A program made the position numbers and the translations under genes. The notes below the pieces were generated by a model that was not told the origin of the DNA, searched no databases, and saw nothing but the letters and a program-made list of their open reading frames with translations. From positions 1,302,001 to 1,366,000 of the forward strand of contig NZ_CP031598.1 of the NCBI RefSeq assembly GCF_008728195.1: a stretch of 64,000 nt of DNA. The letters run 5' to 3'. Shown piece by piece: positions 16,028 to 31,302 of the stretch (its first letter is position 1; every line of letters starts with the position of its first letter). The stretch is from Roseovarius indicus. Lineage in GTDB: Bacteria > Pseudomonadota > Alphaproteobacteria > Rhodobacterales > Rhodobacteraceae.

Positions 16028-17414
16028 GACCGATCTCGTCATCATCGGCGCCGGGCCGGCCGGCATGGCCGCCGCACGCCAGGCCGCCGACGCCGGGCTG
16101 TCGGTCGTCCTGCTCGACGAACAGCCAGGGCCCGGCGGCCAGATCTATCGCGATATCACCCGTGCATCCCCCACGCGCCGCGCGCTGCTGGGCAAGGAGT
16201 ACGACAAGGGCACGTCACTGGCCGAGGGCCTGCAACACCCCGATATCACGCATATTTCCGGCGCGGTCGTCTGGCAGATCGAAGGCGACGCGCAGGTCGC
16301 CTACACTGCCAACGGGGTCGGCGCGCTGGTCACGGGCAAACGCCTGCTCATCGCCACGGGCGCACTGGAACGCCCCATGCCGGTGCCGGGCTGGACCCTT
16401 CCGGGCGTGATGACCGCCGGCGCCGCCCAGATCCTCCTCAAGCAATCCGGACTCGTCGTCGAAAACGCCGTCCTGGCCGGCGCCGGCCCGCTCCTCTACC
16501 TCGTGGCCGCCCAGATGTGCCGGGCCGGCACGCCGCCGCTGGCGCTTGTCGAGACCCAGGCCGCGTCAGACCGGCTTTCCGCCCTCCGTCACGGGGCAGG
16601 GGCGCTGCGGGGCTGGCGATACCTGCTCAAGGGCCTCGGCCTTCTGCGCGAACTCAGGCGGGCCGGCGTCAAACGCTACACCGGGGCCGACGACATCGCC
16701 ATCGAGGGCTCGACCCACGCCGAGGCACTTCGCTTCTCCGTCAAGGGCAGGACGCACCGCTTGCCCTGCGACACCGTGCTGCTCCACCACGGCGTGGTGC
16801 CCAACACCCAGGTCGCGCGCGGCCTCGGCGTCCCGCACCGCTGGCATGCGGGGCAGGGGGCCTTTTGTCCCGAAAGGAACGACTGGGGCGGAACGCCGGT
16901 CGACGGCGTCTTCATCGCCGGCGATGGCGCCGGCATCGGCGGCGCCGAGGCTGCGGCGAACGCGGGCAGGCTCTCGGCACTCGAAATCGCCCGCCAGCTT
17001 GCGACCCTCACGCTGGCCGAGCGCGATGCCGCGGCGAAACCGCTGCGCCGCCGATTGCGGCGCGACCTTGCCGCCCGCCCCTTCCTCGACAGGGCCTATC
17101 CCCCCTATGCCGGCGCCCTGTCACCGGCCGACGACACGATCGTCTGCCGCTGCGAAGAGGTGACCGCCGGCGATATCCGCGGAATGGCCAGGCTCGGCTG
17201 CCGCGGCCCGAGCCAGGCCAAGGCCTTCGGCCGACAGGGCATGGGCCCCTGCCAGGGCCGCTATTGCGGCCTCACGGTCACGGGCCTGCTCGCGGCCGAG
17301 ACAGGGCAGTCCCCGGACCAGACCGGCTATTACCGCATCCGGCCCCCGTTCAAGCCCGTGACGCTTCAGGAACTGGCGGATATCGCCCCGGATCAGCTCA
17401 CCCGTGGTGATTGA
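16020..17414 (+). CDS. NAD(P)/FAD-dependent oxidoreductase, HcnB/OoxA-like, with C-terminal BFD-type [2Fe-2S] domain
   Basis: A 464-residue flavoprotein subunit. The N-terminal dinucleotide-binding motif is LVIIGAGPAGMAAARQAADA; a second nucleotide-binding region includes LVVENAVLAGAGPLLYLVA. The C-terminal domain has C376 and C378 (CRCEEVT) and C411 and C416 (GPCQGRYCG), ligands of a BFD-type iron-sulfur cluster. It completes the three-subunit dehydrogenase, probably passing electrons to quinone. It converges on the aldehyde dehydrogenase gene and overlaps its 3' end by 17 bases. Confidence 0.9.
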   Translation: MTETDLVIIGAGPAGMAAARQAADAGLSVVLLDEQPGPGGQIYRDITRASPTRRALLGKEYDKGTSLAEGLQHPDITHISGAVVWQIEGDAQVAYTANGVGALVTGKRLLIATGALERPMPVPGWTLPGVMTAGAAQILLKQSGLVVENAVLAGAGPLLYLVAAQMCRAGTPPLALVETQAASDRLSALRHGAGALRGWRYLLKGLGLLRELRRAGVKRYTGADDIAIEGSTHAEALRFSVKGRTHRLPCDTVLLHHGVVPNTQVARGLGVPHRWHAGQGAFCPERNDWGGTPVDGVFIAGDGAGIGGAEAAANAGRLSALEIARQLATLTLAERDAAAKPLRRRLRRDLAARPFLDRAYPPYAGALSPADDTIVCRCEEVTAGDIRGMARLGCRGPSQAKAFGRQGMGPCQGRYCGLTVTGLLAAETGQSPDQTGYYRIRPPFKPVTLQELADIAPDQLTRGD

Positions 17415-18852
17415 TGATCGTCTTGACCCGCGAAAACTCGAGCAGCGCCATCAGCCCCTTTTCCCGCCCGTGGCCCGATTTGCGTACCCCGCCAAACGGC
17501 AATTCGATCCCGCCGCCCGCCCCGTAGCCGTTGATGAACACCTGTCCACAGCGCAGGGCCTTGGCCACCCGGTATTGCCGCCCGCCATCCCGGGTCCAGA
17601 TGCCCGCGGCAAGCCCGAACTCCGTGCCGTTGGCAATACGTACCGCGTCGGCTTCGTCCTCGAACGGGATGGCGGCCAGCACCGGGCCAAAGACCTCCTG
17701 CTGCGCCAGCCGGTCGGCCGGGTCCACCGGCCCGTAAAGCCGCGGGGCGACATAGTATCCCTCTTTCGGCGCCTCAGGGTCGACCTGGCCCTCGGCCATA
17801 AGGGGCGCGCCCGCCGTGCGCAGGAACTCCTCGACCCGGCCCTTCTGTTTCAGGGAGATCAGTGCGCCAAGGTCCCTGTCGGCGCCATGAGACGAGGCGA
17901 CCAGCGTGCCGAACCGCTCGACAAGCCGCGCGGTCAGGGTCTCCCAGATGTCCCGATGCACCAGCACCCGCGAGCCGGCCGAACAGGTCTGCCCGCCGTT
18001 CTGAACGATCGCCCCGGTCAGCACCGGCAGCGCCTTCTCCAAATCGGCATCCTCGAACAGGATCTGGGGCGACTTGCCACCCAGTTCCAGCGTGCAGCCG
18101 ATGAAGTTCTTCGCCGCCTCGGTCTGGATCATCACGCCAACTTCCGGCGACCCGGTGAAGGAGATGAAATCAATGCCCGGATGCGACGAAAGCGCAGCCC
18201 CGGCCACGTGGCCCCGCCCGGTGACCACGTTCAGCGCCCCGTCGGGAAACCCCGCCTCCTGCGCCAGCGCGGCAAGGGCCAGCACGGTCAGGCAGGCATC
18301 TTCGGCCGGTTTGACGACGGTGGCATTGCCCATGGCAAGCGCCGGCGCGACAGTGCGGCCGAACATCTGCGCCGGGTAGTTCCACGGGATGATATGCGCG
18401 GTGACCCCATGGGGCTCATGCTCGGCGGTGACCGCGTAGCCGTTGAGAAACGGAATGACCTCGCCATGCAGCTTGTCTGCGGCGCCGCCGTAGAATTCGA
18501 AGTAGCGGGCGGTCGCCACCATGTCGGCGCGCGCCTGCTTCATGGGCTTGCCACAGTCCAGCGCCTCGATCCGGGCCAACCGGTCGGCGTGGTCGTCGAT
18601 CAGGCGGGCCAGCGCCATGAGCAGCCGGCCACGTTCGGTCGCCGTCAGCGCCGACCATGCCCCGCCGTCGAACGCCTCGCGTGCCGCCGCGACCGCCGCG
18701 TCGATATCTGTCGCGTCACTGTCGGCAATGGTCGCGAAGGGGGCGCCGTCGCTTGGGCAGATCATGTCGAGCGTCTTGCCCGACGCCGCGGGCTGCCAGC
18801 GCCCGCCGATCAGGTTGAGCGGGTCGGGAAGGGCAATGTCGAGGTCTTTCAT
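17398..18852 (-). CDS. aldehyde dehydrogenase family protein
   Basis: A 484-residue NAD(P)-dependent aldehyde dehydrogenase with catalytic C290 (NGGQTCSAG), general base E256 (TLELGGKSP) and the cofactor segment SFTGSPEVG. ATG 18852 has AAAGGAG upstream. It is divergent from the quinone oxidoreductase; the TTCGAA palindrome at 18899-18914 lies between them, so both are likely under the GntR protein at 23176. In the proposed pathway it oxidises the aldehyde made by the GMC enzyme to an acid. It could instead serve the dehydrogenase trimer with which it converges. Confidence 0.92.
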   Translation of the reverse strand: MKDLDIALPDPLNLIGGRWQPAASGKTLDMICPSDGAPFATIADSDATDIDAAVAAAREAFDGGAWSALTATERGRLLMALARLIDDHADRLARIEALDCGKPMKQARADMVATARYFEFYGGAADKLHGEVIPFLNGYAVTAEHEPHGVTAHIIPWNYPAQMFGRTVAPALAMGNATVVKPAEDACLTVLALAALAQEAGFPDGALNVVTGRGHVAGAALSSHPGIDFISFTGSPEVGVMIQTEAAKNFIGCTLELGGKSPQILFEDADLEKALPVLTGAIVQNGGQTCSAGSRVLVHRDIWETLTARLVERFGTLVASSHGADRDLGALISLKQKGRVEEFLRTAGAPLMAEGQVDPEAPKEGYYVAPRLYGPVDPADRLAQQEVFGPVLAAIPFEDEADAVRIANGTEFGLAAGIWTRDGGRQYRVAKALRCGQVFINGYGAGGGIELPFGGVRKSGHGREKGLMALLEFSRVKTIINHHG

Positions 18853-18888
18853 CAGGGGCTCCTTTGCGGTTGCGTGGCGGGTCGCAGC

Positions 18889-18917
18889 TTGACCCGATTT
18901 ATGTTCGAACATAATAA
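18889..18917 (+). promoter_or_regulatory. promoter with embedded TTCGAA operator (ALDH / quinone oxidoreductase divergent region)
   Basis: TTATGTTC-GAACATAA at 18899-18914 is a perfect 16-bp palindrome. It occupies the spacer of a good sigma-70-like promoter toward the right: TTGACC (18889-18894), 17 bp, TAATAA (18912-18917). A repressor bound here would block the quinone oxidoreductase promoter. Related sites are at 23053, 31108 and 31162. Confidence 0.75.
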
Positions 18918-18967
18918 GGACGGCGAGGCCCGGTAGCGGCCAGACACCTATTATACGGGAGCGCGAC

Positions 18968-19942
18968 ATGCCGAACGCCATCGTCCTGCGGGAATTCGGA
19001 CCGGCCGAAAACCTTGTCTTCGAAGAGGTCGCGCGCCCCGAGCCCGGGCCGGGCCAGCTGCGCCTTCGCGTCTCCGCGATCGGCGCGAATTACCATGATG
19101 TCTACGTGCGCACCGGTCTTTACCGCACGCTCGACCTGCCGGGCGTTCCGGGGATCGAACTGGTCGGCGTGGTCGAAGCGCTGGGCGAGGGGGTGACCGG
19201 CCCGGCCCCCGGCACGCGCGTCGCCTGCGTGACCGGCCGTTATGGCTGCTATACCGAGGAAGCGGTGGTGCCGGCAGAGCTGGTGCTGCCGATGCCCGAT
19301 GCCGTCAGTGACGAGGCCGCGGCCGCCGGCATGCTGAAAGGGCTGACAGCCGCCATGTTGCTGACCGAAGCCTACCGGGTGGGGGCCGAAACGACCCTGC
19401 TGATCCACGCCGGCGCGGGTGGCGTCGGCCAGATCGTGACACGGTGGGCCAAGGCGCTCGGCGCGACCGTGATTTCCACCGTCGGGTCCGAAGCGAAGGC
19501 CCGCGTTGCCCAGGCGTGCGGCGCAGATCACGTCATCCTTTACCGCGAGGAGGATTTCGTCGCACGCGTGAAGGAAATAACCGGCGGCCGCGGTGTCGAT
19601 GTCGCCTACGACTCGGTCGGGAAGGACACCTTCGCAGGCTCGCTCGATTGCCTTGCCCCGTTGGGGCATCTCGTGAATTTCGGCCAGGCGTCCGGCCCGG
19701 TGCCGCCGTTCGAGGTGTCGCGCCTCGCCGCCGGGTCGCATACGCTTCTGCGGCCGATCATCTTTCACTACCTGGCCGATCCCGCGCGGCGCGGACCTCT
19801 CTTCGAAATGTTGCTCGGGGCGATGGAGGCGGGCCTCGTCACACCCGACGTCGCCCTGAGCCTGCCCCTCTCCGAAGCGGCCGAGGCGCATCGGGCGCTG
19901 GAAAGCCGCGCGCTGGCAGGGGCGGTGATCCTGCGCCCGTGA
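18968..19942 (+). CDS. zinc-independent quinone oxidoreductase (MDR superfamily)
   Basis: A 324-residue NADPH-dependent oxidoreductase of the QOR/crotonyl-CoA-reductase-like branch. It lacks zinc ligands and shows IGANYHDVYVRTGLY and the nucleotide-binding LIHAGAGGVGQIVTRWAK. It could reduce a quinone or an enone/enoyl thioester. It is preceded by a promoter with the TTCGAA palindrome, linking it to the GntR-controlled catabolic genes. It converges on the TRAP small-permease gene with 14 bp between stops. Confidence 0.88.
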   Translation: MPNAIVLREFGPAENLVFEEVARPEPGPGQLRLRVSAIGANYHDVYVRTGLYRTLDLPGVPGIELVGVVEALGEGVTGPAPGTRVACVTGRYGCYTEEAVVPAELVLPMPDAVSDEAAAAGMLKGLTAAMLLTEAYRVGAETTLLIHAGAGGVGQIVTRWAKALGATVISTVGSEAKARVAQACGADHVILYREEDFVARVKEITGGRGVDVAYDSVGKDTFAGSLDCLAPLGHLVNFGQASGPVPPFEVSRLAAGSHTLLRPIIFHYLADPARRGPLFEMLLGAMEAGLVTPDVALSLPLSEAAEAHRALESRALAGAVILRP

Positions 19943-19956
19943 TCGCGCCGCGGTGG

Positions 19957-20457
19957 TCATCCCCTGAAGATCGCCACCGCGTCGACCCAGAACAGCCGCA
20001 GCATTTCCAGCAGCATGAGCAGGAAGGCAAGCGGCATCATCACGGCAATCGGCCAGAGCAGCCAGGTATCCGTGCCGATCTGCATCGTCCGGCCCGTGTC
20101 GACCGCCTTCATCACGAAGGTCGAGCTGAAATAGAGAATGGCGAGGTAGACCGCGATCTCGACCGCCAGCACGGCCGCCCCGAGGGCACGCGCGGCAAGA
20201 CGCGGCAGATGCTCGGAGAGAAGCTCGAAGCGGGGAAACAACCCCTCGCGATGAGCCAGCGGCATCGCCCAGAACACGATCAGCGGGAACAGCACCCGCT
20301 CGATCAGGTTATAGCCGCCGGGAATGAGGTCGGTATGCAGGACATAGCGGCCGAAAACCCCGGCGACCGTGATCAGCATCACCGCAAGGATGCACAGCCC
20401 GGCTCCGATCCCGGCCATGTTCTTTTCGATCAGTCCGATTGCAGACCAGAAGCGCAT
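19957..20457 (-). CDS. TRAP transporter small permease (second system)
   Basis: A 166-residue membrane protein with four hydrophobic segments, including GLCILAVMLITVAGVFGRYV and LLWPIAVMMPLAFLLMLLEM. The GRY after the first helix and the overall size fit DctQ. It is the last gene of the binding-protein, large-permease, small-permease operon read leftward from 22947. Nine bases separate it from the large-permease stop. Confidence 0.85.
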   Translation of the reverse strand: MRFWSAIGLIEKNMAGIGAGLCILAVMLITVAGVFGRYVLHTDLIPGGYNLIERVLFPLIVFWAMPLAHREGLFPRFELLSEHLPRLAARALGAAVLAVEIAVYLAILYFSSTFVMKAVDTGRTMQIGTDTWLLWPIAVMMPLAFLLMLLEMLRLFWVDAVAIFRG

Positions 20458-20466
20458 TTCAAGCTC

Positions 20467-21774
20467 CTATCGGATATGGGCGGGCAGCCAGGTCACCAGC
20501 GGCGGCCAGAGCAGCATCGTGGCGGCCACGGTGACCGCGGCGATAAAGGCAAAGAGCGTCGTCGGCCGGAAGACCTTGGCCACCGGCACGTTCGACACGC
20601 TGGCAGCGGCATAGGTCGACAGGCCCACGGGCGGTGTCAGGAGGCCGAGCGTGATCATGAAGCTCGCAAGAATACCGAACCAAAGCATGTCGACCTGCGC
20701 GGCTTCCAGCATGGGCTGCACGATCGGGATGAGCAGGATGATCACCGCGATGGATTCCAGGATCATGCCGGCAATGAAGATGACAAGCATCAGAACGGCC
20801 ACCAGCATCAGCGGCTGATCAATCATCGGCTCGGCAGCAGACAGGATCGTGCGCGGCAGTTGCGAAAAGCTCAGGAACCGCGAGAACACCTGGGCGGCGA
20901 TCACCAGAAGCACCAGCATCGCCGTGACCTTGGCCGACTCGGTAAGGGCGGCGTAGATGTCGCGCAACCCGATCCGGCGCATGGCCAGCATGCCGGTCAG
21001 CGCGGCAAAGGCGCCCATGGCGCCGGCTTCGCCGACCGTGACGATGCCGCCGTAGATGCTGCCGAAGACGACGAACATCAGGAAGAGCACGAACAGGAAC
21101 GAGATGATCGTGCCGGGCCCGATGGGTTCGTCCTCGATCACCGTGGCATCGCTGCCGCGGGCCTCGGGCCGGATGTCGGAAAAGGCCCAGAGGCAGAAGA
21201 TGAAAACCAGGATGCAAAGGATCGCAGGCCCGATGGAGGCGATGAAGAGCGCCCCGATCGGCACCAGGGTCATGGAGCCGTAGATGATGACGATGATGCT
21301 GGGGGGGATGATGGCCGAAAGCGACCCACCAATGGCGGCCAGACCCACGGCGAAAACCTTGGTATAACCCGATTTTTCAAGCTCGGGCCCGGTAAGGACC
21401 GCAAGAGAGGCGGCGCTCGCGCTGCCTGACCCCGAAACCGCGCCGAGCATTCCGCCCGTGAGGATCGTGGCCACACCGAGCGGCAGCCGCCTTGGGCCCG
21501 CAAGACGCCGCCCGATACGGAAAAGATCGACGATCACGTTGCCCTTGAGCAGGGCCTGCGCCATCAGCAGATAGAGCGGCACAATGGAAAGCGAATAGGT
21601 CGAGGCGGTGAAGAAGATGTCCTGTCCGACCAGCCCGTGCAGCACGCGCGGCCCGGCCCACAGATAGACCCCGACCAGCCCGGCCCCGAAAAGGCAGGTT
21701 GCCACGGCCTGTCCGAGGAAAAGGGCGATGGCGAACCAGGCTCCGACGAACCAAAGCGTGAATTCATGGGACAT
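20467..21774 (-). CDS. TRAP transporter large permease (second system)
   Basis: A 435-residue DctM-type permease core. Family segments include GAVSGSGSASAASLAVLTGP, SLSAIIPPSIIVIIYGSMT and, in the second half, GLLTPPVGLSTYAAASVSN. It follows the binding-protein gene across a 69-bp gap with a stem-loop. The operon start has a promoter overlapped by a TTCGAA operator, so uptake is likely induced together with the catabolic operon at 23892-31059. Confidence 0.9.
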   Translation of the reverse strand: MSHEFTLWFVGAWFAIALFLGQAVATCLFGAGLVGVYLWAGPRVLHGLVGQDIFFTASTYSLSIVPLYLLMAQALLKGNVIVDLFRIGRRLAGPRRLPLGVATILTGGMLGAVSGSGSASAASLAVLTGPELEKSGYTKVFAVGLAAIGGSLSAIIPPSIIVIIYGSMTLVPIGALFIASIGPAILCILVFIFCLWAFSDIRPEARGSDATVIEDEPIGPGTIISFLFVLFLMFVVFGSIYGGIVTVGEAGAMGAFAALTGMLAMRRIGLRDIYAALTESAKVTAMLVLLVIAAQVFSRFLSFSQLPRTILSAAEPMIDQPLMLVAVLMLVIFIAGMILESIAVIILLIPIVQPMLEAAQVDMLWFGILASFMITLGLLTPPVGLSTYAAASVSNVPVAKVFRPTTLFAFIAAVTVAATMLLWPPLVTWLPAHIR

Positions 21775-21808
21775 GGCACTCTCCCCCCTGCCGATCCGGT
21801 CGGATACC

Positions 21809-21843: not shown

Positions 21844-22947
21844 TCAGAGTCCGAGATACTCGGAAATGCCGGTCGGAAGCACACCGCCTTCGGCAACGAT
21901 GTACTCACCATAGAGCTTTGCCGCGGCCTTGGCAGGATGGCCCTGCGCTTCGAGCTTCTCGATCCACTCGACCCAGGTGTCCTCGGCCGCCTTGGCGATA
22001 TGGGCCTGCATCTCGGGTGAAAGATCGTCGATCGCAACGAATTCCGACCCGGCATCGACGGCGACCTGGCGCACCGCGCCCACACCTTCTTCCCACTGCT
22101 GTGCCGCGTCGATCGACACCTGGCGGGCCGTCTCGTCGAAGATCTTCTGTTCTTCCGGCGACATCCGGTTCCATGCGTCCTGGGTGATCGCCAGATAGCT
22201 TTCCCACTGGCCGATCGACACGCCTTCGATCGTGTATTTCAGAAGCTGCTCCATGGAGTAACTCTTCCAGTCGACCACGGCGAGCACGATCCCCTCGATC
22301 GTGCCGCGCGACAGCGCCTCGTAGGCTTGAGAGGCGGGCATCGTGACCGGCGTGGCGCCGAGTTTCTCGAGCACGATGGTCTGAAGACCCGAGCCCGCAC
22401 GCATGGGGACGCCCTGGAAATCGCCGGGCGCTTCAAGTTTCTTGCCGGTGGTCGAGATGGAATAGGCCGCGGTGGCGCCGATGCCCCAGCCGATGATGCC
22501 CTTGTCGCCGATCTCGTAGTCGTAGAACGTCTTGCCGTCGACCAGCTCGACGTCGCTGTCCATCAAGTTCTGGAACGCCCGGGTGACCATGACCGAGTCG
22601 GTCTCGTATGTCGGCAATTGCGTGACTTCGCTCAGCGGGAAGGCGCCTTCGTGGTAGGGCGCAACCAGCGGGTCGATGATGTCGACAACGCCGTTCTGCA
22701 GCGCATCGAGCTCACGGCCAAGGCCGGTCAACTCGCCCGCGAAGAACGGCGTGAAGGTCATCTCGCCACTGGTCTTCTCCTCGAGCCGTTCCATCAGCAC
22801 CTCCTTGTGGGCCGAAACCCAGAGATGCGCGCGCGGCAGCGAAGAGGCGATTGAGAAATTGTCGGCGTGAGCGGCGCTTGCCAGCCCGATTGCGGTGGCG
22901 ACAGCGGCCGCCCGTGTGCCGATACGGCGCACGACGTTGATGTTCAT
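21844..22947 (-). CDS. TRAP transporter substrate-binding protein (second system)
   Basis: A 367-residue periplasmic protein with a 28-residue signal peptide ending SAAHA before DNFSIAS. The DctP-family arginine is in FQGVPMRAGSG, which argues for a carboxylate-bearing ligand. First gene of its operon, it lies divergent from the GntR regulator with two TTCGAA-type sites between. The ligand is presumably the substrate, or acid product, handled by the neighbouring CoA pathway. Confidence 0.92.
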   Translation of the reverse strand: MNINVVRRIGTRAAAVATAIGLASAAHADNFSIASSLPRAHLWVSAHKEVLMERLEEKTSGEMTFTPFFAGELTGLGRELDALQNGVVDIIDPLVAPYHEGAFPLSEVTQLPTYETDSVMVTRAFQNLMDSDVELVDGKTFYDYEIGDKGIIGWGIGATAAYSISTTGKKLEAPGDFQGVPMRAGSGLQTIVLEKLGATPVTMPASQAYEALSRGTIEGIVLAVVDWKSYSMEQLLKYTIEGVSIGQWESYLAITQDAWNRMSPEEQKIFDETARQVSIDAAQQWEEGVGAVRQVAVDAGSEFVAIDDLSPEMQAHIAKAAEDTWVEWIEKLEAQGHPAKAAAKLYGEYIVAEGGVLPTGISEYLGL

Positions 22948-23051
22948 AATGGTAGTCCTCCCTAACCATCCCGACCCCTCGATCGGAACATTCGTCGGGT
23001 AACGCCGGCCCCGTCTGCGCGGTGTATTTTGGCATGATTACCCTAGGTATT

Positions 23052-23080
23052 ATTATATTCGAACAAAATACCTCGCACAA
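23052..23080 (-). promoter_or_regulatory. promoter of the second TRAP operon with overlapping TTCGAA operator
   Basis: On the minus strand TTGTGC (23080-23075), 17 bp, then a consensus TATAAT (23057-23052). The operator TTATATTCGAACAAAA (23053-23068) overlaps the -10 and the spacer, the classic position for repression. Confidence 0.75.
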
Positions 23081-23093
23081 GACATGTTGGCAA

Positions 23094-23109
23094 ATTTATT
23101 CGGACTAAA
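23094..23109. promoter_or_regulatory. second, weaker TTCGAA-type site
   Basis: ATTTATTCGGACTAAA keeps the core spacing of the palindrome with 10 of 16 consensus matches. It lies 41 bp (about four DNA turns) from the site at 23053 and 67 bp upstream of the GntR start, so it may serve autoregulation or looping. Confidence 0.4.
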
Positions 23110-23175
23110 TATCATGGTCTGGACAAGTCCGCGACGCGCCGTGGATGGTGGAAGCCCCGATTCAGGAGACCATTA

Positions 23176-23895
23176 ATGACCGACGGCAGGACTGCAACGA
23201 TCCATCACTCGGTGCTGGCCGACGAATTGCAGCAGGAGATCGTCAGCGGCGCCTACAATGTCGGTGAACGGTTCCCGACCGAGGCCGATCTGCAGGAGCG
23301 TTTCGGCGTGGGCCGGTACACCGTGCGCAAGGCTTTGAAAGTGCTGACAGAGCGGGGCATGATCGCGCGGAAGCGCAAGAGCGGGTCTGTCGTCACCTCG
23401 ACAAAGCCGCTCTCGCAATACATCCACAGCCTTCGCGACATCCGCGGCCTGACGGAATTCGGCCGCTCTACCGACCTTGCGATCAAGCAACAGGGGTTCG
23501 TCGTTCTCGAAAAGACCGATCAGGATACGGGCGGTCGGTATTACCGCCTGGCCGGGCTTCGCAGGCGCAAGGCTGACAACATGCCGCTTTGCTGGTCGGA
23601 GATCCTGATCGCCGAGGCCTATGCGGATATCCGTAACCAGGGCACGGGCGACGATTCTCCGATCTACGAGAAGATCCTCGAAAAGTACGAGCTGAAGCTG
23701 GGATATGTCGAGCAGAGCGTGTCGGCCATCCCTCTCAACCCCGCGATGCGCGACCTGCTGGAAGCCGGCGAGGAGGTTGCAGCGCTCATGGTCGAGCGAA
23801 AGTACTTCGAGGCGGGCGGCACCGTGTTCGAGCGGTCGCGCAACATCTACCCCGGCATGCGCTACGTCATGACCAACGTCTTCCGCGAACGCTAG
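23176..23895 (+). CDS. GntR-family regulator, HutC subfamily (UTRA domain)
   Basis: A 239-residue regulator. The winged HTH occupies about residues 10-75 (PTEADLQERFGVGRYTVRKAL), and the rest is a UTRA ligand-binding domain ending in RNIYPGMRYVMTNVF. AGGAG precedes ATG 23176. It is divergent from the TRAP operon and convergent with the GMC gene, overlapping its stop by 4 bases. Its central position makes it the best candidate to bind the TTCGAA palindromes at 18899, 23053, 31108 and 31162, most likely as a substrate-released repressor. Confidence 0.92.
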   Translation: MTDGRTATIHHSVLADELQQEIVSGAYNVGERFPTEADLQERFGVGRYTVRKALKVLTERGMIARKRKSGSVVTSTKPLSQYIHSLRDIRGLTEFGRSTDLAIKQQGFVVLEKTDQDTGGRYYRLAGLRRRKADNMPLCWSEILIAEAYADIRNQGTGDDSPIYEKILEKYELKLGYVEQSVSAIPLNPAMRDLLEAGEEVAALMVERKYFEAGGTVFERSRNIYPGMRYVMTNVFRER

Positions 23896-25508
23896 GTCGC
23901 GCCGATGATCGTGTCGGCGGCTTTCTCGGCGATCACGTAGGTCGCGGCCATCGTGTTGGCCGATGGCATCGAGGGCATGATCGACGCATCGACCACGCGC
24001 AGGCCGTCGATGCCATGCACCTTCAAGTCGGGGCCGACCACGGCCATCGGATCGGTCTCGGGCCCCATGCGGCAGGTGCTGATGAAATGGAACACGGTCG
24101 AGCCGAGGGTGCGGGCATAATCGAGGATCTCGTCATCGGTCGTGACCTCTGCACCGGGGCTTTCGAGCGCGACGAGATATGGCGCCATGGCCTTGGAGTC
24201 CATCAGCTTACGGGTCCAGCGGACCGCCGAGACGATGACACGGCGGTCGGTCTCGGCAGACAGGTAATTGGGCTGGATCTCTGGTGTTTCGCGCGGGTCC
24301 AGGCTGCGGGCCCGCACGTGCCCCTTGCTTTCCGGGCGTTGTTGCCATGCGCCACAGGTCATGCCGTCATAGCTGTCGAGCAGGCCGACGATGCCTCCGG
24401 CAAAGCTGGCGGGGGCGAAGGTGAACTGGATGTCCGGCTGATCGAGCGCGGGATCGGATTTCCAGAAGGCATAGGCGAGCGATGGGCTCAGCGACAGGAC
24501 GCTTGGCCGGCGCAGGGCGTATTTGACCGCTTCCATCATGAGGGGAAGGCCGCGCGTCATCCGGTTGATCGTGCGCACGCCCTTGACCCGCGCGGTCGCG
24601 CGGATGGCCCAATGATCCTGAAGGTTGGCGCCCACGCCGGGCAAGTCATGCACGACAGGCGCGCCAAGATCGTTCAGCAGGTCGGACGGTCCGACACCCG
24701 AGATTTGCAGAAGCCGTGGCGAGTTGAGTGCGCCGCCACACAGGATGACCTCTCGTTCCGCCCTTATCGTGTGTTCGGTTCCGTCTGCGCGCATCAGCAC
24801 GACGCCGGTCGCACGTCGGCCGTCAAACTGGATGCGTTTCACCACAGCTTCGGAGATAAGGCGCAGGTTGCCGCGGCGGCGGGCGGGGCCGAGGAAACTG
24901 CGCGCGGCGCTGCGGCGACGCCCCCCCTCGATGACCCGCTGATAGAACCCAGCCCCGGCCTGATCGGGGCCGTTGTAATCGGTGTTGCGCGGGATGCCGT
25001 TCTCGACGGCGGCCTCGACGAAAGCGTCGCACAGAGTATGCGGCCAGTCGAGATCGGAAACCGGCAGCCCCCCCGATCGCCCGCGATAGGCGTCGTCCCC
25101 GCCCGTGCCGAGGCGCCGCTCGGTTCGGCGGAACAGTGGCAGCAGGTCGTCGTAACTCCAGCCCGGGTTGCCGCGCTGCGCCCAGCTATCGTAATCGGTC
25201 CGCTGGCCGCGGTTGTAGCACATCCCGTTGATCGAGCTCGAGCCTCCGAGGGTTCGGCCCTGGGTCGCCGGAATGGGGCGGTTCGCCGTGCCCTCACTCG
25301 GTTCTGAGGTGAATTGCCAGGTGTATCTGGGGTTCACGAGGGTCTTGATGTAGCCCGCCGGCATGTGAATGAACGGGTGGCTGTCCCGCGGGCCGGCCTC
25401 GATCACGCAGACATTGCGGGTGCCGTCTTCGGTCAGCCGGTCGGCCAGCAGGCATCCGGCGGTGCCTGCTCCGATGACGATGTAATCATGTGTCTCGCTC
25501 GCGGTCAT
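23892..25508 (-). CDS. GMC-family oxidoreductase (choline/alcohol dehydrogenase-like)
   Basis: A 538-residue FAD flavoenzyme that oxidises a primary alcohol to an aldehyde. The FAD motif is YIVIGAGTAGCLLADRL. The active-site pair is the His in VFHFISTCRMG and the Asn in DASIMPSMPSANTMAATYV, as in choline oxidase-type members. ATG 25508 has AGAGGAA upstream; an ATG at 25547 is less likely. It is the last gene of the six-gene operon read leftward from 31059. With the aldehyde dehydrogenase at 17398 it could turn an alcohol into the acid that enters the CoA branch. Confidence 0.9.
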   Translation of the reverse strand: MTASETHDYIVIGAGTAGCLLADRLTEDGTRNVCVIEAGPRDSHPFIHMPAGYIKTLVNPRYTWQFTSEPSEGTANRPIPATQGRTLGGSSSINGMCYNRGQRTDYDSWAQRGNPGWSYDDLLPLFRRTERRLGTGGDDAYRGRSGGLPVSDLDWPHTLCDAFVEAAVENGIPRNTDYNGPDQAGAGFYQRVIEGGRRRSAARSFLGPARRRGNLRLISEAVVKRIQFDGRRATGVVLMRADGTEHTIRAEREVILCGGALNSPRLLQISGVGPSDLLNDLGAPVVHDLPGVGANLQDHWAIRATARVKGVRTINRMTRGLPLMMEAVKYALRRPSVLSLSPSLAYAFWKSDPALDQPDIQFTFAPASFAGGIVGLLDSYDGMTCGAWQQRPESKGHVRARSLDPRETPEIQPNYLSAETDRRVIVSAVRWTRKLMDSKAMAPYLVALESPGAEVTTDDEILDYARTLGSTVFHFISTCRMGPETDPMAVVGPDLKVHGIDGLRVVDASIMPSMPSANTMAATYVIAEKAADTIIGAT

Positions 25509-25527
25509 GTCGTTCCTCTTGCGCGTA

Positions 25528-26475
25528 TCAAGCCATGGCGGTGGCAAGCGATGGATAGCTTTCGGCCAAGCCTGGAATGCCCGCCTTTTGCACCGCGCCG
25601 CCCAGTGTTTCGTTCGGCAGCCAAGCCGACAGCCGGCTGCGAAGATCCAACAGCGCCCTCATGTCTATACCGGTGGAAAGCCCCTGCGTTTCCAGCAGGT
25701 AGACGGTATCTTCCGTGTCGATATTGCCCGTGGCGCCGGGCGCGAATGGGCAGCCGCCCAACCCTCCCAGCGAGGCGTCAAAGCGGCGGATGCCGGTCTC
25801 GACAGCCGCCATGACGTTTGCAAGGCCAAGACCGCGCGTGTCGTGAAAATGGGCGGCGACCGGGGTGCTTCCCGTTTCGGCCAGGACTGCGGCGAATAGC
25901 CGGCGTACCCTCAGCGGGTCGGCATAGCCCACGGTATCGGCGATCATGATCTCGTCGGCCCCGGCCTCGACTGCTTCCGCAACCAGCCGCAAAACATCGG
26001 CTTCCGCGACCTCACCCTGCAGGGTGCAGCCAAAGGCCGTGGCGATGCCACAGCTCAGGGCCACCTTCCCCTCGAGCCCACGGCTCCGGCGCTCGGCGGC
26101 CACTGCGCGAAAGGCCTCTACGGCTTCCTGGCGGGTGCGACGCACATTGGCGCGGCTGTGCATCTCGCTGGCCGAAATGACGTAGTTGATCTTGCCAATC
26201 CCGAGGTCATAGGCGCGCTCGGCCCCCTTCAGGTTGACGGCGAGGGCAGAGGCGAGCGTGCCCGGTACCTCGAGCGCGGCCGCAGTCACGGCGTCGGCAT
26301 CGGCAAACTGGGGAATGACATGCGGGGGGACGTAACTTGTGACTTCGATTTCCGGCAGGCCCGCGCCGGCCGCGGCTTCGATCCATTCCAGCTTGAGCTC
26401 AGTCGGCAGGACATCTTTCACCAGCTGCAATCCGTCGCGCAGCCCCACTTCCCTGATACGAACGAGATCGGCCAT
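25528..26475 (-). CDS. hydroxymethylglutaryl-CoA lyase-like enzyme
   Basis: A 315-residue DRE-TIM metallolyase that cleaves a 3-hydroxy-3-methylacyl-CoA (HMG-CoA or an analogue) into acetyl-CoA and a keto product. Catalytic residues are visible: R13-D14 in REVGLRDGLQ, metal ligands H209 and H211 in AAHFHDTRG, and C242 in the lyase signature GGLGGCPFAPGATGN. It lies between the enoyl-CoA hydratase (4-bp gap) and the GMC gene (19-bp gap). In the proposed pathway it is the final C-C cleavage step. Canonical HMG-CoA is possible, but a homologue acting on another branched hydroxyacyl-CoA fits equally. Confidence 0.92.
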   Translation of the reverse strand: MADLVRIREVGLRDGLQLVKDVLPTELKLEWIEAAAGAGLPEIEVTSYVPPHVIPQFADADAVTAAALEVPGTLASALAVNLKGAERAYDLGIGKINYVISASEMHSRANVRRTRQEAVEAFRAVAAERRSRGLEGKVALSCGIATAFGCTLQGEVAEADVLRLVAEAVEAGADEIMIADTVGYADPLRVRRLFAAVLAETGSTPVAAHFHDTRGLGLANVMAAVETGIRRFDASLGGLGGCPFAPGATGNIDTEDTVYLLETQGLSTGIDMRALLDLRSRLSAWLPNETLGGAVQKAGIPGLAESYPSLATAMA

Positions 26476-26479
26476 GCGC

Positions 26480-27271
26480 CTATTTCCCCTCGAATTTAGG
26501 TGGGCGTTTCTCGTTGAATGCGGCGGTTCCCTCGTGCCTGTCCTGCGTATGGATCAGCCGGTAATAGGCCTCGATCTCGAAGCTGAGACCGTCCGACAAG
26601 GACATGTTCACCCCCTTCCGGATAGATTGCTTCGCCTGGTTGACGGCAAGCGGGGCATTGGCCGCGATCCGGTGGGCCACATCAAGCGCCGCTTGCATCA
26701 GTTCGGCGCCGGGCAGCACACGGTTCACCAGCCCCCATTCATGGGCCTGCGCGGCGTCGAAGGTGCCGCCGGTGAGGATCACCTCGGTGGCCCGCCGGGT
26801 ACCCATGGCGCGGGGCAGGTTCTGCGTCCCCCCCGCTCCTGGAATGATGCCGAGCTTGACCTCGGTCTGGGCAAAGCGGGCGGTGTCGGCCGCGTAGATG
26901 AAGTCGCAACAGGCGGCAATCTCGCAGCCCCCGCCGAACGCCGCGCCGTTGACCGCGGCGATGATCGGTATGGGGCAGGCGATGATCGCCCGCGCCATGC
27001 GTTCGAAAACGAGGTGTTGCGCCGTCCATTCCTCGTCGGTCATGCCAAGCCGCTGCTTGAGGTCCCCGCCTGCGCAAAAGGCCTTGTCACCATCGCCCGT
27101 CAGCACGATGCAGCGCGCGCCGCAATGGTCGAGCTGATACCCCTCGAACAGGGAACACAGGTCCAGACCCATCTGCGTGTTGAGGGCGTTCCGCGCCTCT
27201 GGCCGGGTGAGGGTCACGACATCGACATGGTCACCATGCCGCGCAAGGGTGAGGGTTTCGTAGCTGGTCAT
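26480..27271 (-). CDS. enoyl-CoA hydratase/isomerase (crotonase family)
   Basis: A 263-residue crotonase-fold enzyme. Both hydratase glutamates are present: E117 in GGGCEIAACCD and E137 in QTEVKLGIIPGAGG, and the oxyanion-hole region AFCAGGDL is intact. This favours true hydratase activity over a decarboxylase or isomerase. The start overlaps the MmgE/PrpD stop by 4 bases. It would hydrate the enoyl-CoA made by the acyl-CoA dehydrogenase at 29902 to the 3-hydroxyacyl-CoA cleaved by the lyase. Confidence 0.92.
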   Translation of the reverse strand: MTSYETLTLARHGDHVDVVTLTRPEARNALNTQMGLDLCSLFEGYQLDHCGARCIVLTGDGDKAFCAGGDLKQRLGMTDEEWTAQHLVFERMARAIIACPIPIIAAVNGAAFGGGCEIAACCDFIYAADTARFAQTEVKLGIIPGAGGTQNLPRAMGTRRATEVILTGGTFDAAQAHEWGLVNRVLPGAELMQAALDVAHRIAANAPLAVNQAKQSIRKGVNMSLSDGLSFEIEAYYRLIHTQDRHEGTAAFNEKRPPKFEGK

Positions 27272-28686
27272 ATGTCATCCCGTTTCAAAGCGGCGAGGTC
27301 GGCCAGCCAGGCGTCGACCGGCATGTCGCTGTCCAGAGCAAGCCCGGCCTCGAAAGTGGCCCGCGCCGCAGAGCGCGATGTTCCGGGACGAAACCGTGAC
27401 AGGCAATCGTGCCACTTGTCCAGATGGTCGTCGGGCAGGATGGGGTCTTCGGGCGAGCCCGGCGAGGTCGTGCAGGTGGCCTCGGCGGTCGATCCGTCGC
27501 GCAAGGTCAGGGTAACGGTTACAGGGGCTGAGCCGACGTCTCCGCCTCGCTGTGACCGGCCCTGTCGTTCAACCAGTTCCACATCGCCGAAACGGGCGCG
27601 CAGGGCAGGGCGGTCGACGGCGGCCTGGGTGAAGCTGGCCAGGTTGACCCGCCCGTCCGCCAGGCTGGCCACAACGGCATATGGGCCACTGAAAAGGGCC
27701 TCCAGCGCTGTCGTCGGGCGAGGGTGAATGAGCGGGCGGGTTCCGCCCGCTGGCATGTCCACACGGGCCGAAACCATGTCGTCCAGCGTAATGCCCTGTG
27801 CCTGTAACGACAGGGAAGCATGGATCATCCGGTGCAGCATGTAGCAGCAGGGATAGCGCTTCAGCTCGAAGCCGGGCGTTTCGATGACGAAGGGCGTGCC
27901 GAGGGTGACGTCGCCCGGCCAGGTATCGGTATGGCCGCCGGAAAAGGCATTCAGGAAGCCGTTGGTTTCGAAAGGCTCCCGCGATGCTTCAACCCCGGCC
28001 GCGGCCAGTGCTACGGCGCGAAGGCCGCTTTCCGCGGCAAGCCCCACGTGCAGTGACTTGACCGGCGTTCCGAAGTTTCGCCGCAGTCCCGACGACATAC
28101 TGGCGGCAATGGCCAGAGATGCGGTGGTGCACGCGTGATCCTGGCCAGTCAGCCGGGCGACGGCCGCCGCCGCGCCAAGCGTTCCAAGGGTTCCGGTGGC
28201 ATGAAAGCCCAGGTCATAGTGCCGGAAGCCAAGCGCCTCGCCCGTCCGGATCAGGACCTCTGTGCCGACGCAGACCGCGTCGATCAGGTCGCGCCCGGTC
28301 GTGTCGTGGGGCATTGCCGCGAGACAGGCGGCGAGGACCGGAGCCGTGGGATGGCAGATCGCGAGCATGGACACGTCGTCGTAGTCCAGAACATGGGATG
28401 CCATCCCATAGAGGCGCGCGGCGTCGTCGCGCCGCAGCATCCCGCCGGACCAGAAGTCACGAACGGCGTCCGCGTTCTCTGAGCGTTGCAGGGTTGCAGC
28501 CAGCCGGCCTACGGCGGGCTCGGTTCCGCCGGCGAGCATCACGGCCATGGTGTCGATGATCGAGGAAACGGCCCGTGTCCGGGCAATGCCGGACGGCTTG
28601 GCCGAAACCACGAAATGCGCCATTCGGCCGGTGGCTCCGGCTGTGGCCGGGCTCTCGGGGCGCTGGGCTGTCGATTGCACTGTCAT
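27268..28686 (-). CDS. MmgE/PrpD family protein
   Basis: A 472-residue member of the family that includes 2-methylcitrate dehydratase and cis-aconitate decarboxylase. The N-terminal part shows VSSIIDTMAVMLAGGTEPAV and a central HVLDYDDVSM segment, the usual active-site region in this family. ATG 28686 has AGGAG upstream; the reading frame stays open into the CoA-transferase gene but without family similarity. Its role among CoA-ester enzymes is unclear: dehydration, decarboxylation or isomerisation of a free hydroxy- or unsaturated polycarboxylic acid before CoA transfer is possible. Confidence 0.85.
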   Translation of the reverse strand: MTVQSTAQRPESPATAGATGRMAHFVVSAKPSGIARTRAVSSIIDTMAVMLAGGTEPAVGRLAATLQRSENADAVRDFWSGGMLRRDDAARLYGMASHVLDYDDVSMLAICHPTAPVLAACLAAMPHDTTGRDLIDAVCVGTEVLIRTGEALGFRHYDLGFHATGTLGTLGAAAAVARLTGQDHACTTASLAIAASMSSGLRRNFGTPVKSLHVGLAAESGLRAVALAAAGVEASREPFETNGFLNAFSGGHTDTWPGDVTLGTPFVIETPGFELKRYPCCYMLHRMIHASLSLQAQGITLDDMVSARVDMPAGGTRPLIHPRPTTALEALFSGPYAVVASLADGRVNLASFTQAAVDRPALRARFGDVELVERQGRSQRGGDVGSAPVTVTLTLRDGSTAEATCTTSPGSPEDPILPDDHLDKWHDCLSRFRPGTSRSAARATFEAGLALDSDMPVDAWLADLAALKRDDI

Positions 28687-28706
28687 GTCCTGGTCTCCTG
28701 TTCGTG

Positions 28707-29891
28707 CTACCCGATGATCCCGCTGTCGCGCAGCCGGGACACCTGGACCTCGTCGAGGCCCAGGCCGGAGATGATCCGGTTGGTATCGGCACCAAGGTCT
28801 GGCGGGGCAGACCGGGCGTGGGGCCGTTGCCCGTCGGCCCGTATCGGCAACCCGACGACCTGGCCGCCGGTGCCGGGCAGTGTTTCCAGAAGCCCGACCG
28901 CATCGACCTGCGGGTCGTTCACGATCTGCGAGACATCGTTGATGAGGGAGCAGGGCGCCCCCTCGGCCCGCAATCGGCTGACGATCTCTTCGCCATTCAT
29001 GGCAAGCGTGCTTTGCTGCAACGCCTCTTTCAGCGCAGCGCGATTGGCCACGCGCGACGGGTTGTCTGCAAAGCGCGGATCCTCGGTCAGGTGCATGCAG
29101 CCGAGTCCGCGGCACACGCAACCGAAGAGCCGATCGTTGCCGGCCGCGATGAAGACATAACCATCCTTGCAGTGATAGACTTCGTAAGGCGCCGCCATCG
29201 CGACACCGGAGCCGAGACGTTTCTGTACCTGACCGGATACGAGGTAGCTCGAGATGACTATCGACATCCAGCCGATGCCCGTGTCGAGAAGGCTGGCCTC
29301 GACGGTGCAACCCTCTCCGGTACGGGTGCGGTTCAGCATCGCCGCCAGTACCCCGAGAGCGGCCCAGATGCCGGTGCCCAGGTCGACGATCGAGACGCCG
29401 GCCCGAACGGGTTCGTCGCCATCGTGACCGGTCACGCTCATGATGCCGCCAAAGGCCTGGATCAGGGGGTCATACCCCGGGAGCGACCGCAGCGGGCCGT
29501 TCTGGCCGAAGGCGCTAATCGCGCAATAGACAAGCTTCGGGTTGGCCGCGCGCAACTCGTCCGCTCCAAGACCCGCCTTCTCGGCGCTTCCAGGCTTGAG
29601 CGAATGGACCAGGATATCGCAGTCGGCCGCGAGGCGCCGCAATAGATCCTGACCCTCGGGGGTGGACGTGTCGACGCAGATGCTCTGCTTGTTGCGGTTG
29701 AGCGCGGAAAACGTGGCCGAGCGCCCGTCGTCTCCGATCGGGCTCCAGGCGCGGGTGTCGTCGCCCTTGCCGACACGTTCGACCTTGATGACCTCCGCGC
29801 CGAAATCGGCCAGGATCTGGGTCGCGAACGGACCGGCCACGTTTTGCGTGAGGTCGAGCACGGTGCAGCCCTTGAGAACGGTATCCAGCAT
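28707..29891 (-). CDS. class III CoA-transferase (CaiB/BaiF family)
   Basis: A 394-residue CoA-transferase that moves CoA between a donor thioester and a carboxylic acid. The N-terminal LDLTQNVAGPFATQILADFG is characteristic, and the catalytic aspartate lies in GVSIVDLGTGIWAALGVLAA. ATG 29891 has AAAGG upstream. It is second in the operon, 10 bp after the acyl-CoA dehydrogenase. It would activate the acid produced from the alcohol or imported by the TRAP system, without ATP. Confidence 0.9.
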   Translation of the reverse strand: MLDTVLKGCTVLDLTQNVAGPFATQILADFGAEVIKVERVGKGDDTRAWSPIGDDGRSATFSALNRNKQSICVDTSTPEGQDLLRRLAADCDILVHSLKPGSAEKAGLGADELRAANPKLVYCAISAFGQNGPLRSLPGYDPLIQAFGGIMSVTGHDGDEPVRAGVSIVDLGTGIWAALGVLAAMLNRTRTGEGCTVEASLLDTGIGWMSIVISSYLVSGQVQKRLGSGVAMAAPYEVYHCKDGYVFIAAGNDRLFGCVCRGLGCMHLTEDPRFADNPSRVANRAALKEALQQSTLAMNGEEIVSRLRAEGAPCSLINDVSQIVNDPQVDAVGLLETLPGTGGQVVGLPIRADGQRPHARSAPPDLGADTNRIISGLGLDEVQVSRLRDSGIIG

Positions 29892-29901
29892 CAGGGGCCT
29901 T

Positions 29902-31059
29902 TCAGTATGACCGCGGCAGGCCAAGCACATGCTCGGCGAGGTAACTGAGGATCAGGTTGGTCGATATCGGCGCGACCTGGTAAAGCCGGGCCTCGCGAAA
30001 CTTGCGTTCGATGTCGTACTCTTCGGCAAAGCCAAAGCCGCCGTGGAACTGTACGCAGGCTTCGGCGGCCGCCCACGAGGCTTCGGACGCGAGCATCTTG
30101 GCGAGGTTCGCCTCCTCGCCGCAGGGTTCGTTTGCCTCGAACAGGTCCGAGGCGCGTTCGACCATCAGTGCGGCGGCCTGGGTTTGGGCATAGGCCCGCG
30201 CGATCGGGAACTGCACGCCCTGGTTCTGGCCAATCGGGCGGCCGAAGACCTCACGCTCCTGCGCATAGGCAATGACCTTGTCGAGAAACCAGCGGGCATC
30301 GCCGATACATTCGGCGGCAACGAGGATGCGCTCGGCATTCATGCCCGACAGGATGTAGCGGAAGCCTTTGCCTTCCTCCCCGATCAGGTTTTCGGCGGGA
30401 ACGGGGACATTGTCGAAGAACACCTCGGTCGTGGAGTGGTTCATCATCGTGCGGATCGGCCGGATCGACATTCCCGCGTCGCGCGCGGCCTGCATGTCAA
30501 GCAGGAAGATCGACAGACCATCTGTTTTCCGGCCAACGTCCGAGAGGGGCGTCGTGCGCGCCAGCAACAGCATCAGGTCTGAGTGCTCCGCACGCGAGGT
30601 CCAGATTTTCTGGCCGTTCACCACGTAATCGTCTCCGTCCCGAACGGCGGTGGTGCGCAGGGCGCCGGTGTCGGTCCCGCTGGTCGGCTCGGTCACGCCG
30701 AACGCCTGCAAGCGCAACTCGCCCGACGCGATCCGGGGCAGGTAGGTTTGCCGCTGCTCGTCGCTTCCGTGTCTGAGCAATGCTCCCATGATGTACATCT
30801 GCGCATGGCATGCGGCGCCGTTGCAGCCGGTTCGCTGGATTTCTTCCATGATGGCGGATGCGGCGGGCAGGGGCAGGCCGGCCCCCCCGAATTCCTCGGG
30901 AATGAGGGCTGCAAGGTATCCGGCGTCCGTCAGCGCCTGAACGAACTCGGACGGATAGGCCATGTCACGGTCCTTGTCCCTCCAGTAGCTGCCGGGGAAG
31001 CGCTCGCAGACTTTCCTGACGCCCTCCCTGATCTCAGGAAAGGTTTCTGCAATGGGCAT
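29902..31059 (-). CDS. acyl-CoA dehydrogenase with isovaleryl-CoA-type catalytic glutamate
   Basis: A 385-residue FAD acyl-CoA dehydrogenase, first gene of the six-gene operon. The beta domain shows FGVTEPTSGTDTGAL and the C-terminal domain shows GGFGFAEEYDIERKFREARL. The usual C-terminal YEGTSEI catalytic glutamate is absent (here YQVAPISTNL); instead E243 in GMNAERILVAAE aligns with the base of isovaleryl-CoA dehydrogenase, suggesting a branched substrate. Two ATGs are adjacent; the second (31059) has better spacing from GGGAGGA. The operon promoter region carries TTCGAA operators at 31108 and 31162. Confidence 0.9.
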   Translation of the reverse strand: MPIAETFPEIREGVRKVCERFPGSYWRDKDRDMAYPSEFVQALTDAGYLAALIPEEFGGAGLPLPAASAIMEEIQRTGCNGAACHAQMYIMGALLRHGSDEQRQTYLPRIASGELRLQAFGVTEPTSGTDTGALRTTAVRDGDDYVVNGQKIWTSRAEHSDLMLLLARTTPLSDVGRKTDGLSIFLLDMQAARDAGMSIRPIRTMMNHSTTEVFFDNVPVPAENLIGEEGKGFRYILSGMNAERILVAAECIGDARWFLDKVIAYAQEREVFGRPIGQNQGVQFPIARAYAQTQAAALMVERASDLFEANEPCGEEANLAKMLASEASWAAAEACVQFHGGFGFAEEYDIERKFREARLYQVAPISTNLILSYLAEHVLGLPRSY

Positions 31060-31107
31060 CATGTCCTCCCTTGTGCCGCTGTATCGGCGGCACATCTCGC
31101 TGTTTAT

Positions 31108-31123
31108 ATTTATTCGAACATAA
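31108..31123. promoter_or_regulatory. TTCGAA operator upstream of the CoA-pathway operon
   Basis: ATTTATTC-GAACATAA: the right half is identical to the 18899-18914 palindrome and the left half matches at 5 of 8 positions. It lies 49 bp upstream of the acyl-CoA dehydrogenase start, where it would overlap the promoter. Confidence 0.7.
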
Positions 31124-31161
31124 AAATTCTGCCGAGTCGAGATTGATTGCCGGTAAAAAAT

Positions 31162-31177
31162 TTATATTCGAACAAAT
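31162..31177. promoter_or_regulatory. TTCGAA operator between the CoA-pathway operon and the exporter
   Basis: TTATATTC-GAACAAAT closely matches the sites at 18899 and 23053. Its core is 54 bp from the site at 31113. It is about 125 bp upstream of the ABC exporter ATPase start, so it may affect both divergent operons. Confidence 0.68.
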
Positions 31178-31302
31178 ATGGTGAAAGCCGGTCATGTCGC
31201 GCCGCGCGGAGGCAGGATTCTTCCCGAACAAAGCTGAGCTTGACATGCATCAATGCTGAGCGGCCTCGCACCCGTACACTGCACCTCGAAAGGGGTTTCG
31301 TC

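Follow-up and report, generated by a model that had tools for sequence, protein, structure and literature searches.

GntR proteins form a very large regulator family, in which the code that links residues of the recognition helix to operator bases is only partly worked out. Most sites of the HutC subfamily contain GT and AC four nucleotides apart (Suvorova et al., PMC4494728). In that study, the central base pairs vary with position 39 of the helix-turn-helix (HTH) domain: Met, as the most frequent residue, leans towards A/T without significance, Asp goes with G/C, and His is associated with G in YtrA and AraR. Arg at position 28 is associated with G/C at sites 8/17, which are read here as the base before GT (PMC4494728). 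NagR, the best-studied structural relative of the regulator described below, blocks transcription (PMC4333415). Here we analyze a stretch of 64,000 nucleotides from Roseovarius indicus contig NZ_CP031598.1 (the window; C1:1302001-1366000 of the 6.17-Mb genome), in which the GntR-family protein encoded from position 23176 is predicted to be a local repressor that binds five 16-bp operators in three promoter regions and governs about 12 genes (rough probability, 0.8).

The 23176 protein combines an N-terminal GntR winged HTH domain (PF00392; 61 bits, cut-off 27) with a C-terminal UTRA domain (PF07702; 53 bits, cut-off 23.8). Although the HutC equivalog TIGR02018 is its best NCBIfam match, the score of 86.3 bits stays below the cut-off of 220, and a separate HutC is encoded in the same genome (C1:4574175; 255 bits against TIGR02018). 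Its UTRA domain assigns the protein to the HutC subfamily, but it is not HutC itself. Its recognition helix reads GVGRYTVRKAL, with Ala37 at HTH position 28, Arg47 at position 38, and Tyr48 at position 39, the last of which is His in most close homologs. By analogy with the published trends, a T before GT and a CG centre is the operator that Ala37 and Tyr48 would suggest (PMC4494728). The five sites, scored against a motif learned from orthologous loci (ATttgTTCGAAcaaAT), are as follows.

18899 to 18914, unstranded: operator 1, TTATGTTCGAACATAA; perfect palindrome (16/16), 22.4 bits; in the divergent promoter region (divergon) of the aldehyde dehydrogenase (ALDH) and quinone oxidoreductase (QOR) genes, overlapping a promoter-like element of QOR
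23053 to 23068, unstranded: operator 2, TTATATTCGAACAAAA; palindromic at 12/16, 23.2 bits; dctP/gntR divergon
23094 to 23109, unstranded: operator 3, ATTTATTCGGACTAAA, earlier called weak; palindromic at 8/16, 21.1 bits; dctP/gntR divergon
31108 to 31123, unstranded: operator 4, ATTTATTCGAACATAA; palindromic at 10/16, 24.2 bits; upstream of the coenzyme A (CoA)-ester operon
31162 to 31177, unstranded: operator 5, TTATATTCGAACAAAT; palindromic at 10/16, 24.2 bits; upstream of the CoA-ester operon

All five sites named in the preliminary description are present, including the perfect 16-bp palindrome at 18899. The spacing is 41 bp between operators 2 and 3 and 54 bp between operators 4 and 5. 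Of the latter two, operator 4 lies 46 bp and operator 5 lies 100 bp upstream of the start of the acyl-CoA dehydrogenase (ACAD) gene.

The main evidence comes from the promoters of orthologous regulators. An alignment of 11 GntR sequences, used as a profile against GTDB contigs, returned at least 509 confirmed relatives, from which the best 80 loci were kept. The closest eleven among the matches listed (L050-L059 and L072) encode GntR proteins with 37–50% identity to the 23176 protein, and two loci (L161 and L163) were added from a class-wide search of 385 alphaproteobacterial genomes. Seventeen promoter segments from 12 of these loci (L050-L058, L072, L161 and L163) were submitted to palindromic expectation-maximization (EM), with the window excluded and the diverged L059 and L162 left out. 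The best eight of 60 starts gave ATttgTTCGAAcaaAT, which is thereby learned de novo without the window. Its log-likelihood is 131.4. None of 40 shuffled sets exceeds 41.5, and none of 20 sets drawn from other parts of the same loci exceeds 50.6; the EM had 40 starts on the real set and 12 on each control set. A site of at least 17 bits is found in 11 of the 12 gntR-adjacent segments; in the twelfth locus, L053, the site precedes a neighbouring gene, a zinc-type dehydrogenase by eye, by about 50 bp. When the 64-kb window is scanned with ATttgTTCGAAcaaAT, the sites at 31162, 31108, 23053, 18899 and 23094 rank first to fifth, followed by a sixth match of 16.8 bits that is not CG-centred and a seventh of 9.8 bits. 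The comparison of upstream regions proposed in the preliminary description therefore recovers the same palindrome, and the site at 23094, the fifth-best match of the ortholog-derived motif, belongs to the set. Control of these promoters by a GntR-type protein through the palindrome is strongly supported by this sequence evidence.

The operators are also rare. With up to three mismatches, TTATRTTCGAACAWAA has 8 strand matches in the window, at 18899, 23053, 31108 and 31162, against 0.17 expected from 100 shuffles. Frequent random matches in the genome, which would have spoken against the motif, are not seen: with up to two mismatches, TTATRTTCGAACAWAA occurs in the whole 6.17-Mb genome only at the four strong sites. 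With up to three mismatches allowed, the count rises to 66 strand matches (32 + 34), compared with 24 (13 + 11) for the reversed control. A widened form, WWWWRTYCGRAYWWWW, which was chosen after the ortholog sites had been seen, matches the window exactly five times, 23094 included (0 in 100 shuffles), and the genome at 7 places, 5 of which are the window operators (control, 2 forward and 2 reverse). The genome contains a family of TTCGAA-centred palindromes, TTTTCTTCGAAGAAAA, with 11 exact copies, from which the operators might have arisen as a chance or repeat artefact. The arms of this family differ, however (CTTCGAAG with GC caps), none of its members matches the operator below three mismatches, and the operator recurs in other genomes, where the ortholog EM and its controls speak strongly against an artefact; this explanation has a negligible probability. 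Membership of the operator in the TTCGAA palindrome family was rejected on account of the different arms.

The repeat family itself consists of GC-capped A+T palindromes: in addition to the exact copies of TTTTCTTCGAAGAAAA, five copies with one mismatch are found (control, 0), with examples at G000:C1 1823183, 1945401, 2424240, 2470958 and 3392552. Palindromes of the CCGGAAAATTGGAATTTTCCGG type stand directly beside TTTTCTTCGAAGAAAA in three of five inspected loci, and a CG-centred form in a fourth. The family probably represents intergenic repeats or terminator-like hairpins.

The genes served by the three promoter regions are listed below, in order of position.

17398 to 18852, minus strand: ALDH (PF00171)
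18968 to 19942, plus strand: QOR, zinc-type quinone oxidoreductase / enoyl reductase family (family profile matches)
19957 to 20457, minus strand: DctQ, small subunit of a tripartite ATP-independent periplasmic (TRAP) transporter (family profile match)
20467 to 21774, minus strand: DctM, TRAP transporter large subunit (family profile match)
21844 to 22947, minus strand: DctP, TRAP solute-binding protein, first in the transport operon (family profile and PDB relatives)
23176 to 23895, plus strand: GntR-family regulator, HutC subfamily, 239 amino acids (PF00392 and PF07702)
23892 to 25547, minus strand: GMC-family flavin adenine dinucleotide (FAD) alcohol dehydrogenase, last gene of the CoA-ester operon (family profile matches)
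25528 to 26475, minus strand: 3-hydroxy-3-methylglutaryl (HMG)-CoA lyase family protein (HMGL; NCBIfam subfamily cut-off exceeded, catalytic motifs present)
26480 to 27271, minus strand: enoyl-CoA hydratase (ECH; family profile match)
27268 to 28686, minus strand: MmgE/PrpD family protein (PrpD; profile search of 27268-28626, start read from the sequence)
28707 to 29930, minus strand: CaiB/BaiF type III CoA-transferase (CaiB; family and PDB relatives)
29902 to 31062, minus strand: ACAD, first gene of the CoA-ester operon (family and PDB relatives)

On the minus strand, the TRAP operon runs dctP-dctM-dctQ (22947 to 19957) and the CoA-ester operon runs ACAD, CaiB, MmgE/PrpD, ECH, HMGL, GMC (31062 to 23892). 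The claim of a single local regulon holds, while its earlier size of about 14 genes does not: the likely regulon comprises the 12 genes listed, with the ABC set left out, or 15 if the ABC/FtsX/HlyD genes at 31303 are added. Operators 4 and 5 sit in an intergenic region that the ACAD operon has in common with these genes (31303-35595), which start 125 bp beyond the nearest operator. Among the ortholog loci searched, no FtsX or HlyD match recurs and the ABC matches are weak. The set, a MacB-like ABC/FtsX/HlyD export system that diverges at 31303, adjoins the regulon together with a GH25 lysozyme-like gene (window 31303-36641).

Across loci, the regulator and operator are constant, as are the CoA-ester enzymes in most of them. 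A PrpD homolog and a CaiB homolog are each found in 10 of the eleven closest loci (tblastn, E<=1e-15). In 9 of the 12 loci used for EM (L050, L051, L052, L054, L055, L057, L072, L161 and L163), matches to CaiB, ACAD, PrpD, ECH and HMGL near gntR are 53–67% identical to those of the window; eight of the nine hold two to five of these enzymes, and L055 holds PrpD alone. A PrpD ortholog (E<=1e-90) occurs in 3 of the 385 alphaproteobacterial genomes, including the window's own, always clustered with this gntR. The transporters vary: TRAP-like genes are present in L054, L057 and L163, and sites precede non-homologous transporters, directly in L050 (a Peripla_BP_6 protein) and L161 (an MFS protein), and also in L052 (TctC-like by eye). 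A constant regulator and operator, with the enzymes kept in most loci and the transporter changing, is the pattern expected of a regulon for one catabolic function. One of the loci, L056, is the same place as L021 (G004:C617); it is titled Oceanobacillus sp. HTM 045, and a genome search assigns the same position of the contig to the family to which the window belongs, so the record is probably mislabelled.

The proposed mechanism is as follows. The GntR/UTRA protein, presumably as a dimer, would bind the five operators (consensus ATTTGTTCGAACAAAT, with a GT-N4-AC frame and a CG centre) and thereby control ALDH/QOR, dctP/gntR, which includes self-control, and the operon ACAD-CaiB-PrpD-ECH-HMGL-GMC. 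Because operators 1–3 overlap promoter-like elements, the bound protein most likely blocks RNA polymerase there; a substrate or CoA-ester intermediate that binds the UTRA domain would release it. The two best promoter-like elements of the region face gntR (plus strand, 23029-23056 and 23087-23115, 10/12 each), and operator 3 takes up most of the spacer of the second. The promoters called good at 18889 and 23052 in the preliminary description are present, although each has one hexamer at just 3/6: TTGACC-17-TAATAA scores 8/12 (its alternative TTGACC-18-AATAAG, 9/12) and TTGTGC-17-TATAAT scores 9/12. The earlier assignment of the palindrome to one GntR regulator stands, with the motif recovered from orthologous promoters and binding predicted; for the term repressor, we infer the activity only from site position and family.

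Several points, given in this paragraph and the next, weigh against the proposed repressor. Promoter-like matches overall do not stand out clearly from chance (4 found, 1.8 expected, sd 1.5), the elements are weak or ordinary, and no minus-strand promoter match over operators 4 and 5 exceeds 8/12, for which reason the effect of these two operators is not readable from the sequence. Their positions upstream of ACAD would also suit a GntR protein that binds the same sites as an activator or dual regulator, and the HutC-type NagRBt is described as a dual regulator in the title of PMC6141813. On the other side stand the overlap of operators 1–3 with promoter-like elements and the transcriptional block exerted by NagR (PMC4333415), so that we regard an activating or dual role as improbable and retain repression as the preferred reading.

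The sampling also favours the motif somewhat, since the sites had already been looked at once when 5 of the 17 segments were selected in the vicinity of cassette genes; the motif was first sought in the orthologs with the sequence from the preliminary description in hand, although EM itself was blind to the window. In L053, L056 and L058 the enzyme sets are absent or diverged, and L059 and L162 carry GT-ACGG-AC sites instead. A cassette that lacks gntR, which would serve as a negative test, was not found in the 385 alphaproteobacterial genomes. Two other consensus matches, C1:3242827 and 3243716, lie about 1.9 Mb off beside a LysR gene. These matches flank that gene, another LysR gene is present in the window at 12336-13382, and binding of the GntR protein to the sites is itself predicted, which leaves room for a different regulator, such as a LysR or IclR protein, that binds the palindrome with the GntR gene as a mere neighbour or target. 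The motif, however, is found again next to members of this GntR subgroup in alpha- and betaproteobacteria of different names, and GT-N4-AC is the published HutC frame (PMC4494728), which makes another regulator quite improbable, more so than an activating role. The off-cluster matches seem unlikely targets of the 23176 protein, which remains our candidate for the five sites.

Some observations concern the surroundings of these loci. At L171:8818-9740 (G000:C1:3242818-3243740), tandem TTCGAA arrays flank the LysR gene between ALDH and OpuAC-type binding-protein genes, and are perhaps the LysR protein's own sites. In the window, positions 12336-17414 hold a separate second cluster that comprises the LysR gene and a TRAP solute-binding protein, then FAD oxidoreductase and 2Fe-2S genes (by eye); a scan of the whole window with WWWWRTYCGRAYWWWW finds no operator copies in it. 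L059 and L162 represent a sister cassette, in which ACAD is 68–70%, CaiB only 43–44%, and PrpD 35–37% identical to the window proteins. With its GT-ACGG-AC sites, this cassette offers a natural variant pair for the study of operator change.

The regulon gives a handle on a CoA-ester catabolic pathway. Among the PDB relatives of CaiB, an unnamed CaiB/BaiF protein ranks first (E 9.5e-79) and succinate-hydroxymethylglutarate CoA-transferase second (E 8.3e-76). HMGL scores 279.7 against the NCBIfam HMG-CoA lyase subfamily cut-off of 246 and keeps the GGCP and HFHDTRG catalytic motifs, and lyase activity is predicted. PrpD resembles IDS epimerase and IRG1/cis-aconitate decarboxylase, and the 65 PDB matches of DctP (best, 78 bits) are uninformative on the substrate. 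In the putative route, the TRAP transporter would take up a carboxylic acid, which the CaiB transferase would activate for dehydrogenation, hydration and then cleavage by the HMG-CoA-lyase-like enzyme; ALDH, GMC and QOR may feed in alcohol or aldehyde precursors. The best fit for the substrate, still a doubtful one, would be a C5-C6 dicarboxylate with a 3-methyl branch, or else an alcohol or aldehyde from which it is formed. The itaconate (rip) cluster of Pseudomonas aeruginosa likewise brings together a TRAP transporter, a CaiB transferase, an acyl-CoA dehydrogenase and an MmgE/PrpD protein. Its regulator is of the LysR type and its hydratases and lyases belong to other families, whereas the window cluster has ECH and the HMG-CoA-lyase type.

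The CG centre extends to a wider set of HutC-subfamily loci. Among 147 loci with a readable HTH (some entered in duplicate, the window's own among them), position 39 holds His (66 loci), Tyr (63), Phe (13) or another residue (5). Sites were defined as R-T-N4-A-Y with either 6 of 8 pairs palindromic or A+T arms. With 12 repeats removed, 135 upstream regions were scanned, in which a few genes still occur twice (for example L065/L137 and L067/L139): CG-centred sites are found in 29 of them, against a mean of 3.25 and a maximum of 7 in 40 shuffles, and TA-centred sites in none. The same scan of true HutC loci, a small control set of 23, gives a TA centre in 5 and CG in 0; of the 18 HutC proteins read, 14 have Met at position 39. 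In stretches some 3.7 kb long, TGTNTANACA is found in 7/23 HutC loci versus 1/80 branch loci, and TGTNCGNACA in 3/23 versus 14/80; in its three HutC loci, TGTNCGNACA lies about 490–630 bases upstream of hutC. The five UTRA paralogs of the window's genome are left out of this comparison. EM on 106 non-redundant branch upstream regions (near-duplicates removed, from 120; close orthologs left out) yields AaaTGTcCGgACAttT as the best motif, in about 41% of them, with a log-likelihood of 167 versus 76–88 for six shuffled sets (80 starts of 40 rounds for the real set, 15 starts of 25 rounds for each shuffled set). A second, unexplained motif, tcgTCGAtaTCGAcga (log-likelihood 156), carries little information and is placed in almost every sequence. 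A CaiB gene within 1.5 kb occurs in 13/69, 10/27 and 7/25 branch loci (three sets that have a few genes in common) versus 0/23 HutC loci. The CG-centred frame upstream of the branch's gntR genes is a further argument against another regulator as the reader of the window palindrome.

Together, these patterns point, at somewhat less than even odds, to an undescribed large branch of the HutC subfamily in which position 39 is aromatic (His, Tyr or Phe). Its members would read CG-centred TGTCCGGACA/TGTTCGAACA operators rather than TA, many of them would govern CaiB-type CoA-transferase pathways, and position 39 alone would set the centre. Since common descent may account for both the residue at position 39 and the centre, with phylogeny as the confounder, the one-residue switch is only a hypothesis. 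Sequence alone yields a regulator, five operators, 12 target genes and a one-residue prediction (Tyr or His for CG, Met for TA at position 39), for which true HutC is the natural comparison group. For a GntR protein, no description of this CG-centred operator type (TGTTCGAACA, TGTCCGGACA, TCCGGACA) was found in titles and abstract starts among the matches listed from the open-licence literature, and a report elsewhere is possible.

Compared with known systems, the operator GT-TCGA-AC, in which G is often A, keeps the subfamily frame, as predicted from conservation, and departs from the usual, not obligatory, TA centre of the consensus NyGTMTAKACNy: CG stands in the five sites and in the ortholog motif (consensus from PMC4494728). 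A new frame was rejected on this ground, the frame being the ordinary GT-N4-AC, and the earlier suggestion that the motif differs from classic operators holds for the centre only. NagR/YvoA and DasR, like the 23176 protein, combine a winged HTH and a UTRA domain with the GT-N4-AC frame (PMC4333415, PMC4494728); the window operators differ from theirs by a T in place of G before GT. Arg48 of NagR corresponds to Arg47 here, the recognition-helix position that reads the G of GT; at position 39 NagR has Met49 instead of Tyr, and at position 28 Arg38 instead of Ala (PMC4333415), and the similarity over the chain is only about 44 bits. HutC (TIGR02018) is of the same subfamily, and its loci show TGTNTANACA sites, mostly with Met at position 39 as counted above. 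A known precedent is AraR of B. subtilis: its helix FGVSRHTIRKA aligns ungapped with FGVGRYTVRKA, and its box At(T/A)tGTaCGTAcaa(A/T)T is nearly the same, with a CG centre and A+T arms (PMC4218819); position 28 is likewise not Arg (PMC4494728). AraR differs in its LacI/GalR-type sensor in place of UTRA (PMC4494728), in its inner bases (ACGT versus TCGA), and in a sugar pathway that is not present here. What would be new at this locus is a changed centre in an old frame, which also stands upstream of many relatives.

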